Assembly: GCA_020852405.1 (NCBI GenBank) | Contig: JADZAX010000146.1 | Location: forward strand, 1-34,982 | Length of the DNA: 34,982 bases | Origin: Verrucomicrobiales bacterium | Lineage (GTDB): Bacteria > Verrucomicrobiota > Verrucomicrobiia > Verrucomicrobiales > DEV007 | Direction of reading: 5' to 3' | Shown: in pieces, positions 31,636 through 34,837 of the stretch | Numbering within the stretch: position 1 is the first letter of the stretch | Layout: every line of letters begins with the position of its first letter | The notes under the pieces: generated by a model | What the model saw: the letters and a program-made list of their open reading frames with translations, nothing else | What the model was told of the DNA's origin: nothing | Database searches by the model: none | Program-made: the position numbers and the translations under genes

Positions 31636-33504
31636 ATGCACTCTCGTTCGCTGATCGCCGCCGTCCTCGCCCTCCTTTCCGCCCTGCCGCTCGGCGCCGC
31701 CGAGCGGGTCGCCCTCGTGATCGGGAACGACGCCTACCCCGCCTCGGTGGACCCGGCCACGCAGCGGCTGCGCGAGGTGAAGCTGGAGAACTGCGTCAAT
31801 GACGCGACCGCCGTGCGGGACATGCTGCGCGACCAGCTCGGGTTTCCGGCGGAGGGCATCATCTTCGGGCGGGACCTGACCCGGACCCAGATCTACCAGA
31901 AACTGGAGGCCTTCAAGAAAGCCGCCGCCGGGTCCGAAATGGCCCTCGTCTTCTACGCCGGACACGGCATGGAAAGCCTCGACGGACGGGAGAATTTCAT
32001 CATCCCGGTCGATGCCGACCTCGTCGGGGCGGGGGAGTCCGAGGCGCTGCTGCGGGGCACCGCGGTGAATCTGACGGAGGTCCTCGGCTACGTCACCAAG
32101 GCCACCGGCGGTCCCAAGGTGGTGCTGCTGGACTGCTGCCGGGACCGCCCGGCGAAGCGGACCGCGACCGGCAAGGTCGCCGAGGGCGGGGGCCTGGCGC
32201 AGTTGCCGGAGGACCAGATCCCGGCGGACACGCTGATCCTGCTGGCCGCCGCGCCGAACAAGCAGGCCAGTGACGGGCGGGGTCACGGGCCGTTCACGGC
32301 GGCGCTGCTGGCGAATCTCCCGGCGCGGGGGCAGAATCTCCTCGACGCCTTTTTCAAGGTGAGCGACGCGGTCCAGGAGGCGACGGGGAAACAGCAGATC
32401 CCCTGGCTGAAGTTCGACGGCTCGGGAACGATCTTCCGGCAGAGCGCCCTGGTGACGGGGAACGCGCCGGTCGTGGCGCCCCCGGGGCCGGTGATGAACA
32501 CGGCGGAACTGGCGGCGCGGGATCGTCAGATCGAGGAATTGAAGGCGCAGATCGCGAAGATGGCGCGGGAGAGCACGGGCCGGGCCGACCAGGCGGCGGA
32601 GCTAGCGGTGGTGAAAGAGCAGCTCACGGCGATCCAGGAACAGATCAAAAGCAAACCGGCGGTCACGATGACGCCCCCGGCGTCTCCGGCGACGAAGCCG
32701 TCAGATCAGTCCAATACGTCCCATACGACCTATACAACAGGCCTGGACCGGGGCGCCATTGGGGACTCAAGGAGCTTCGAGATCGGCGGGGGGCAGAAGG
32801 TGGTCCTGAAATACGTGCCGGGCGGGGAGTTTCTGATGGGGAGTCCGGAAGGGGAACAAGATCGGAGCGACGACGAGAAGCAGACGCGGGTGACGCTGAG
32901 CAGCCATTACTGGATGGGAGAGACGGAGGTGACGCAGGGGCAGTGGGAGGCGGTGATGGGGAGCAACCCGAGCAATTTCAAGGGGGCGACGCTGCCGGTA
33001 GAGCAGGTGAGCCACGACGACGCGGTGGCCTTCCTCGGGAAACTGAACGCGCAGAGCCGGCCGGCGTCCGGGTGGCGGTGGGCGTTGCCGAGCGAGGCGC
33101 AGTGGGAGCGGGCGTGTCGCGGGGGCACGGAGACGGTGTTCAGCTATGGGAACAGTCTGGACAGCACGCAGGCAAACTTCGACGGGAACTATCCCTACGG
33201 AAACGGGAAGAAGGGGCCGTATTTGGAGAAGACGGCGGCGGTGAAATCCTACGCCGCCAACGGGTATGGGCTGTATGACATGCACGGGAATGTGTATGAA
33301 TGGTGCGCGGACTGGTATGGCGAGACGCTCCCCGGCGGAGTGGATCCCCACGGTCCTAAGACTGGCTCCAACCGCGTGGGCCGCGGCGGGTCGTGGGGCA
33401 ACCGCGGCAGGAACTGCCGCTCCGCCTACCGCTTCTGGTTCACGCCGGACTTCCGGGACTACTACCTGGGGTTCCGCTTGGCCGCAGTTCCCGAGGAGCG
33501 GTAG
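31636..33504 (+). CDS. Secreted caspase (peptidase C14)-like + FGE/SUMF1 (C-type lectin-fold) fusion protein; candidate DGR target protein
   Basis: Signal peptide; AERVALVIGNDAYP, MALVFYAGHGMESLDGRENFIIPVDAD (His), VVLLDCCRDRP (Cys); Ala/Glu-rich linker; FGE domain VVLKYVPGGEFLMGSPEGE...HYWMGETEVTQGQWEAVMGSNPSNFKG...LPSEAQWERACRGG...YDMHGNVYEWCADWYG...RVGRGGSWGNRGRNCRSAYRFWFTPDFRDYYLGFRLA. Confidence 0.92.
   Translation: MHSRSLIAAVLALLSALPLGAAERVALVIGNDAYPASVDPATQRLREVKLENCVNDATAVRDMLRDQLGFPAEGIIFGRDLTRTQIYQKLEAFKKAAAGSEMALVFYAGHGMESLDGRENFIIPVDADLVGAGESEALLRGTAVNLTEVLGYVTKATGGPKVVLLDCCRDRPAKRTATGKVAEGGGLAQLPEDQIPADTLILLAAAPNKQASDGRGHGPFTAALLANLPARGQNLLDAFFKVSDAVQEATGKQQIPWLKFDGSGTIFRQSALVTGNAPVVAPPGPVMNTAELAARDRQIEELKAQIAKMARESTGRADQAAELAVVKEQLTAIQEQIKSKPAVTMTPPASPATKPSDQSNTSHTTYTTGLDRGAIGDSRSFEIGGGQKVVLKYVPGGEFLMGSPEGEQDRSDDEKQTRVTLSSHYWMGETEVTQGQWEAVMGSNPSNFKGATLPVEQVSHDDAVAFLGKLNAQSRPASGWRWALPSEAQWERACRGGTETVFSYGNSLDSTQANFDGNYPYGNGKKGPYLEKTAAVKSYAANGYGLYDMHGNVYEWCADWYGETLPGGVDPHGPKTGSNRVGRGGSWGNRGRNCRSAYRFWFTPDFRDYYLGFRLAAVPEER
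33376..33480 (+). repeat. Candidate DGR variable region (VR) at the 3' end of the caspase-FGE gene
   Basis: GSWxNxxRNCRSAxRxxxxPDxRxxxLGFRL scaffold; most putatively variable positions use NNC codons (ggc, aac, cgc, ggc, tac, ttc, ttc, ttc, gac, tac, tac) compatible with AAC codons in a template repeat. Confidence 0.6.
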
Positions 33505-33574: not shown

Positions 33575-33587
33575 CCCGCGAAGCGGG
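33575..33587 (+). other. Small GC hairpin downstream of the candidate VR (terminator-like)
   Basis: CCCGC-GAA-GCGGG, followed by cggaaaatttttct. Confidence 0.4.
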
Positions 33588-33632: not shown

Positions 33633-33785
33633 ATGGCTTACGCGTTTTTCAAAGTGCCTTGCACCCCTGAGCCCGGGGCCTCCGACTTGCTGAACGATTT
33701 TTTGCGGAGGCACTCCGTGCTCGCGGTGGAAAAGCAGTGGGTGGGAAGCGGGGAGGCTTCCTTTTGGGCGTTTTGCATCCAGTAA
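33633..33785 (+). pseudogene. Truncated N-terminus resembling the HRDC-type DGR accessory ORF
   Basis: ATG at 33633 to TAA at 33785: MAYAFFKVPCTPEPGASDLLNDFLRRHSVLAVEKQWVGSGEASFWAFCIQ*; 50 aa, missing from the ORF track. Resembles the FFxIP...ELNxFLxxHRVLxVExxFVxxGxxSxWxxCV N-terminus as I recall it for these accessory proteins. Confidence 0.55.
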
Positions 33786-33800
33786 TCCCCCGAACCCGTC

Positions 33801-33897
33801 TCAGGCCAGGATCGGGCGCACCACTTCGCCGTGGACGTCGGTGAGGCGGAACTCGCGGCCCTGGTATTTGAAGGTCAGCCGCTCGTGTTTGTTGGTC
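33801..33897 (-). pseudogene. C-terminal fragment of a DUF1501 protein
   Basis: Minus strand reads [31 protein letters not shown], the usual DUF1501 C-terminus ((L)[29 protein letters not shown]); a TGA interrupts the frame just upstream. Confidence 0.7.
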
Positions 33898-34051: not shown

Positions 34052-34837
34052 ATGAAAAGCGAGAAAACCTTGAGTGGAGACGGAGGATTGTTTCCAGAAA
34101 CAGATTGGGAGGCACTAGGGCACCTGAAACTCACCAATGGAGATGCGCCAGGATTGGTGGATCGACTCTCCCGTGCGTATTGGCGTCCACTTTGGATTGT
34201 GGCCCAGAACCGTGGATTGAACAGTGAAGATGCCCGAGACGCTGTCCAAGGTTTTTTTCTGCATGCGATTACCACATCCCTCTTTACCAAACCCACTGAG
34301 GCCTTGGGGAGATTTCGCAGTTATCTCTACCGGTCTTTCTGCAACTACTTGGCTGGCTTGCGCCGGAGGGAGGTGGCGGCCTCGCGAAGGCCCAGGAAGG
34401 GACTTGTCTCACTGGACGAACTTGATTCGGGAGAAGTCGAAGGTCGGGGCGGCTTCGCTGACCCCTCATTCACTGATGAAGAGGACAGGTTTCGAACTGA
34501 ATGGACTATTGCCTTGATTCATAAAACATTGTCAAGATTGCGTGAGGCCTGTGAATCCAAATCCAGGATGACGCACTTTGACGTTTTTAATGAATGGTTG
34601 GTCCTTCCTGTTTTGGATCCAGAAGCGGCGCGTTCGCCAAGCGGCAAGCGGACGCTTGCTGAATTGGCGCAGAAGTATCGCCTGACAGTGAAACAGGCTT
34701 CCAATGTCGTGGTCACGATGAAGCGAGCCTTTCGTAGAGCCCTTCACGAGGAATTGAATGAATTGCCCCTGACCGAGACCTCACTCTCCATCCAAGTGAG
34801 GGAAGCTCTTTCCATGCTTGAGATACATTCTGATTGA
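34052..34837 (+). CDS. Sigma-70 family (ECF-like) RNA polymerase sigma factor, PVC type
   Basis: LVDRLSRAYWRPLWIVAQNRGLNSEDARDAVQGFFLHAI (region 2-like); LAELAQKYRLTVKQASNVVVTMKRAFRRALHEEL (region 4 HTH); good SD aggagg upstream. Confidence 0.75.
   Translation: MKSEKTLSGDGGLFPETDWEALGHLKLTNGDAPGLVDRLSRAYWRPLWIVAQNRGLNSEDARDAVQGFFLHAITTSLFTKPTEALGRFRSYLYRSFCNYLAGLRRREVAASRRPRKGLVSLDELDSGEVEGRGGFADPSFTDEEDRFRTEWTIALIHKTLSRLREACESKSRMTHFDVFNEWLVLPVLDPEAARSPSGKRTLAELAQKYRLTVKQASNVVVTMKRAFRRALHEELNELPLTETSLSIQVREALSMLEIHSD

Follow-up and report, generated by a model that had tools for sequence, protein, structure and literature searches.

A candidate orphaned variable region of an HRDC-type DGR at the end of a caspase-FGE gene in a Verrucomicrobiales genome

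The stretch of DNA analysed here (the window, 34,982 nt) is contig C146 of a Verrucomicrobiales genome, G000, whose 5.14-Mb assembly is MAG-like, comprises 648 contigs and is 83% complete. A sequence-only reading of the window had proposed that the last codons of one gene, a caspase-FGE fusion, are the variable region (VR) of a DGR, the product of adenine mutagenesis of a template repeat (TR). Two questions follow: is this gene end a VR, and where are the reverse transcriptase (RT) and the TR that would have served it? Comparison with related loci leads us to an answer that we hold with good confidence, namely that the gene very probably encodes the variable protein of an HRDC-type DGR whose cassette has since been lost, so that its VR is now orphaned. 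The features that bear on this answer are listed below.

31636..33504, plus strand: caspase-FGE gene of 622 aa, candidate orphaned DGR variable protein (Pfam and translation)
31636..31701, plus strand: hydrophobic, signal-peptide-like N-terminal segment, MHSRSLIAAVLALLSALPLGAA (from the translation; export inferred)
31705..32415, plus strand: caspase (Peptidase_C14) domain, PF00656, aa 24-260, E 7e-30
32815..33483, plus strand: FGE / C-type-lectin-fold domain, PF03781, aa 394-616, E 2e-42
33373..33483, plus strand: candidate VR, RVGRGGSWGNRGRNCRSAYRFWFTPDFRDYYLGFRLA, with its core RGGSW...GFR at 33382-33477
33575..33587, plus strand: hairpin of DGR target type, CCCGC(GAA)GCGGG, 97 nt 3' of the GFR codon
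33588..33599, plus strand: CGGAAAATTTTT tract directly after the hairpin, a form kept at related DGR targets
33633..33785, plus strand: remnant of an HRDC-type DGR accessory gene, its initial 50 aa (MAYAFFKVPCTPEPGASDLLNDFLRRHSVLAVEKQWVGSGEASFWAFCIQ) followed by TAA, the HRDC domain lost
33786..33803, no strand: break at which HRDC homology stops, the remaining cassette, RT and TR included, being absent (deletion or assembly join)
33804..33890, minus strand: C-terminal stump (29 residues, 87 nt) of a large paralogous protein family, debris beside the break

The architecture of the protein is that of a protease fused to a binding domain. Its caspase part carries the predicted catalytic dyad of an orthocaspase (Peptidase_C14), formed by the histidine of YAGHG (His110, codon 31963-31965) and the cysteine of DCCR (Cys168, codon 32137-32139), and both residues are unchanged across 16 aligned relatives. 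A segment resembling MHSRSLIAAVLALLSALPLGAA stands directly ahead of the caspase domain in most intact relatives, and to judge from this signal-peptide-like N-terminus the protein is apparently exported. The C-terminal domain has the C-type-lectin/FGE fold of DGR targets, with the candidate VR at the 3' end of the gene, and its closest solved relative is TvpA (2y3c; sequence E 9e-28, Foldseek E 3e-18). Known FGEs have a pair of active-site cysteines lying close together towards the C-terminus. This pair is absent from the window protein, which has a single cysteine within the 37-residue VR segment; the domain therefore has the FGE fold and is unlikely to be an FGE enzyme. In an AlphaFold2 model of the protein (mean pLDDT 77, pTM 0.45, values that make the arrangement of the domains unreliable), the caspase part resembles the MALT1 paracaspase in fold.

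The proposal of a VR relied on conserved anchor residues and on the codons between them. On re-reading, the coordinates, residues and NNC codons reported for the gene end all proved correct. NNC codons make up 25 of the 37 codons of the VR (68%), compared with 29% in the remaining FGE domain. The GC-rich third positions of this gene weaken the codon argument, as C-ending codons reach 46% in the caspase part and a 37-codon stretch near the 5' end is as NNC-rich as the VR. Nine verified TRs of related DGRs define ten columns at which the template codon is mostly AAY, and the window VR has NNC at all ten (p about 1e-4 to 3e-4 from codon usage), which together with the 68% against 29% places the NNC pattern above chance. 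The argument from the scaffold was borne out only in part: the anchors are present, but RGGSW, CRSA and GFR are not restricted to DGR targets and are found also in FGE proteins without a known DGR role, so that the scaffold by itself is no proof of a VR. The natural similarity of FGE-family C-termini likewise calls for caution in direct comparison, for which the available TRs, the VR's own not having been found, come from other genera and differ from the window VR at no fewer than ten non-A bases. Against one of these, the TR of locus L112 from another genus of the same family, the VR core shows differences at 15 of the 25 adenines, compared with 10 of the 71 other bases (p 2e-5), and across a 38-nt stretch, CGC...CCT, beginning with the CGC at 33430, all nine differences fall at adenines. 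The case for the window VR is made by three further elements, the hairpin, the stump of an accessory gene and the intact sister loci.

Behind the VR, the window reads in the order caspase-FGE gene, hairpin CCCGC(GAA)GCGGG, AAAATTTTT and the ATG of the accessory gene. The sequence CCCGCGNAGCGGGNGG occurs three times in the 5.14-Mb genome, each time on the strand of its gene, and the other two copies lie behind the DGR target genes of contig C565; a reversed control pattern had no copies. So few copies, all behind DGR targets, rule out a common genome-wide terminator as the sole explanation, and the window hairpin with its T-run could act as a transcription terminator, possibly in addition. In the first set of loci (1.52 Mb) we counted eight GC-rich hairpins that combine a GNA loop with a T-run after it. 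Seven follow a VR-like end at no more than 170 nt, and the last follows the truncated gene of C565; of nine similar hairpins with other loops, none stands in such a place. A scan of 23 further RT loci, with slightly looser stem rules than the first, placed 6 of 10 GNA hairpins within 170 nt behind VR-like ends, zones that amount to 1.5% of the bases. The same type is common to the window, the C565 targets, L216, L231, L235 and others.

A hairpin behind the VR, with a GRNA loop in phage DGRs, is required for efficient homing in BPP-1 (Guo et al., PMC3240598). The window hairpin matches the BPP-1 target site in being GC-rich, in its position behind the VR and in its G..A loop, and at C565 the stop codon TAG lies within the hairpin, as in mtd of BPP-1 (PMC3240598). 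It departs from that model in form and in spacing. BPP-1 and its phage relatives have GRNA tetraloops on stems of 7-10 bp, 4-34 bp away (PMC3240598), whereas the window and its relatives have a GNA triloop on a stem of 5 bp here and 5-8 bp in the relatives, followed by a T-run, and their hairpins stand about 50-160 nt behind the VR core. In view of these departures (triloop, 5-bp stem, longer distance) and of the possible terminator role, we call it a putative target hairpin, a reading that its distribution supports.

The gene that begins after the hairpin is recognizable as a DGR accessory gene of the HRDC type, intact in L216 and L231 and truncated here. An HMM built from nine accessory proteins of other DGR loci scored the stump at 48.4 bits (E 1e-13), compared with a maximum of 5 bits for 2000 shuffles of the same stretch, and a six-frame search of the window with this HMM returned no other scoring segment. 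At the DNA level, the stump is 68% identical to the intact L216 HRDC gene over 152 nt, and this similarity ends exactly at GCATCCAGTA. On the far side of the break, the minus-strand stump belongs to a family that has about 49 other members in this genome, many of which measure 460-610 aa and which are perhaps sulfatases. With the head of an HRDC gene on one side of the break and this stump on the other, the locus looks like a cassette from which the HRDC domain, RT and TR are missing. Near the break, at the contig end, an ECF/sigma-70-like factor is encoded at 34052-34837, with a TIGR02937 match below cut-off.

Intact relatives of such a cassette exist. DGR-type RTs adjoin FGE genes in several of the 57 related genomes examined, an adenine-specific repeat-pair scan found TR/VR pairs in most of these RT-FGE loci, and a related RT is present in 31 genomes of a 387-genome sample of the order. 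Caspase-FGE genes are the DGR targets in four loci. At L104, two of them flank one Avd-type DGR, with 0 of 72 non-A mismatches per VR core; the Avd-type locus L156 (identical to L252; public contig DDTJ01000022.1, Akkermansiaceae UBA2367) has 0 of 73; and the Avd-type L241 likewise pairs its caspase-FGE target with a TR in an adenine-specific manner. The HRDC-type locus L231 (G060:C102), from the window's own family, runs from a caspase-FGE gene through the hairpin GACCGC(GAA)GCGGTC and a T-run to an HRDC gene (PF00570), an RT (PF00078) and a TR. Of the differences within its 127-nt TR/VR pair, 20 fall at TR adenines; the only two others are C>T and lie at the outer edges. At L216 (G070), a caspase-FGE gene is followed by the hairpin GCCGC(GAA)GCGGC and an intact HRDC gene, and then the contig ends. 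The window keeps the order of L231 and L216, with a 50-aa stump in place of the HRDC gene, which supports a decayed HRDC-type cassette.

We then come to the whereabouts of the RT and the TR. One proposed check was for a nearby DGR RT; a PF00078 search found no RT on the window contig, and a DGR RT is encoded on another contig, C565. G000 has three RT loci, on C7, C565 and C347, and the RTs of C7 and C347, which look like group II intron RTs, were rejected as DGR RTs. On C565 (3308 bp, locus L042), an HRDC gene, a DGR-type RT and a TR stand between two FGE genes, the first of them represented by its end alone, and the C565 TR departs from its own VR at 13 positions of the 127-nt core, every one an adenine in the TR (7 A>T, 5 A>G and 1 A>C). 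As the template of the window VR this TR was rejected, with 16 of 72 non-adenine mismatches over the 96-nt VR core. The near-identical TR that had been named as a check did not appear elsewhere in the genome either: two degenerate pattern searches of the 83%-complete assembly for TR-compatible sequence (same base or A; 66 nt, at most three non-A mismatches) returned only the window VR itself, which rejects a hidden TR elsewhere in the assembly, and a DNA search gave no candidate better than the C565 repeats. The window locus thus has neither an RT gene nor a TR. Since no matching TR was found, we claim here the VR of a decayed or orphaned DGR and not a working one; what endures of the original proposal is the VR, upheld by the hairpin, the HRDC-gene stump and the adenine-specific sister cassettes.

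Some minor observations concern these RT loci. The C565 RT frame (L042 576-1952) runs on across the TR and for about 150 nt more before it closes, so that the RT ORF contains the TR, in a different frame; RT frames extend into the TR also in L112 and L233. At the other end of C565, L042 1-193 is the 3' end of an FGE target whose VR is lost at the contig end, and over 81 nt this gene end is 96% identical to the downstream C565 target. The group II intron-like RT of C347 (L044 630-2121) is split into several reading frames.

An assembly error could also separate a VR from its cassette: the contig may be falsely joined near 33785, with the RT and the cognate TR on a missing or unbinned contig and the VR still being rewritten. 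The fragmented and incomplete state of the assembly is in keeping with this, as is the tendency of DGR repeats to break assemblies (the contigs of L216, L217 and L218 end beside VR or HRDC genes), and the NNC codons of the window VR show no decay. However, at the break the head of the HRDC gene faces the tail of a gene of the large paralogous family, two stumps that together look like genomic debris, and neither an RT fragment nor a TR-like sequence for the window VR was found in the assembly. We consider a false join unlikely.

A poorer prospect is that the C565 RT diversifies the window VR in trans, from its own or another TR. The two loci share a genome, a related RT/HRDC type and an identical hairpin sequence, and in cyanobacteria remote variable proteins are served by a single DGR (PMC7517822). 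Set against these likenesses are the 16 of 72 non-adenine mismatches of the C565 TR to the window VR, compared with none to its own VR, and the sequence 3' of GFR, which is unlike between C565 and the window. Service from C565 is accordingly quite improbable.

A second caspase-FGE gene in G000 (C275; L043 1496-3415) bears no DGR marks and can serve as a control from within the genome. Its overall identity to the window gene is 68%; the caspase domains share 84%, the FGE domains 66% and the VR segments 54%. At the ten TR-AAY columns C275 has NNY at only six, and it has neither the hairpin nor the AAY-derived codon pattern. Least probable of all, by a small step, is that the window gene simply ends in an ordinary FGE-family C-terminus in a GC-rich genome, from the stock out of which DGR targets evolved, a reading in keeping with the wide occurrence of RGGSW...GFR, the frequent C-ending codons of the caspase part and the lack of a TR in the assembly, but one that leaves unexplained the hairpin confined to DGR targets, the well-placed HRDC stump and the intact sister cassettes, and that has in C275 an example of what such a copy looks like.

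If the window VR was orphaned by loss of an HRDC-type cassette, its history can be sketched; we infer that the VR was once rewritten, that a deletion took place, that the protein is exported, and that the VR binds a ligand and thereby controls the caspase. In the ancestor, the VR would have comprised the last ~35 codons of an FGE/C-type-lectin binding domain fused to an apparently exported orthocaspase. Error-prone at adenines, the RT would have made cDNA from a TR close by, and this cDNA would have taken the place of the VR next to the hairpin downstream, with changes to about a dozen residues. The cassette may later have been lost by deletion or rearrangement, the RT and TR entirely and the HRDC gene for the greater part, which would have left a single VR variant frozen. 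In the protein, a ligand-binding face is most likely formed by the VR residues, and the protease is most likely controlled by binding there.

Among known systems, TvpA of the Treponema denticola DGR is alike in the sequence and fold of its FGE domain and in its C-terminal VR; it is not known to have a caspase domain. The T. denticola DGR includes an HRDC accessory gene (PMC4891356) and retains the TR and RT, unlike the window locus. Closer in domain composition are cyanobacterial DGR variable proteins with an orthocaspase N-terminus and a C-terminal CLec domain that holds the VR (PMC7517822). Like the window gene, they are fusions of a caspase-type peptidase and a CLec domain, accompanied by genomic paralogs and by remote copies; they differ in belonging to another phylum and a separate RT clade, whereas the window copy is orphaned, and HRDC is absent from the main text of that report. 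In Thiohalocapsa PB-PSB1 and its relatives, FGE/CLec VRs have been proposed to be invader (antigen) sensors coupled to protease effectors (PMC10907252). One target of this type has a caspase-like CHAT domain, akin to the caspase here, but the partners are mostly STAND, MoxR or vWA (PMC10907252), none of which occurs in the window protein, and that protein differs further in placing sensor and caspase on one polypeptide with a signal-peptide-like N-terminus. In the literature searched, we found no paper on caspase-FGE DGR targets in Verrucomicrobia.

These loci extend caspase-type DGR targets, known from cyanobacteria (PMC7517822), to Verrucomicrobia-type bacteria, and the single-chain caspase-FGE design is used by HRDC- and Avd-type cassettes alike. 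A broader idea, which we put forward tentatively and regard as somewhat doubtful, is that both types diversify the binding faces of exported single-chain caspase-FGE proteins, which would be extracytoplasmic, ligand-triggered hypervariable proteases, the window gene being a frozen member. What sets the window gene apart is its orphaned state and its well-marked hairpin. An orphaned frozen VR, C275 without DGR marks and the intact cassettes together form a test set for asking whether the variable FGE domain regulates the caspase, and the recurrent GNA-loop hairpin offers a practical marker for DGR targets that lack a TR or lie far from one.

Two other genomes of the survey contain arrangements of a related kind. 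At L113 (G032:C7, 1499-7042), caspase-FGE genes lie on either side of an RT with an Avd-like gene, and no TR was recovered within 9 kb. Genome G025, which carries DGR RTs, has two ORFs with at least six tandem FGE domains each (G025:C4 89445-95039, 2462 aa; G025:C128 307-4959, 1695 aa), and these are possible multi-VR proteins.
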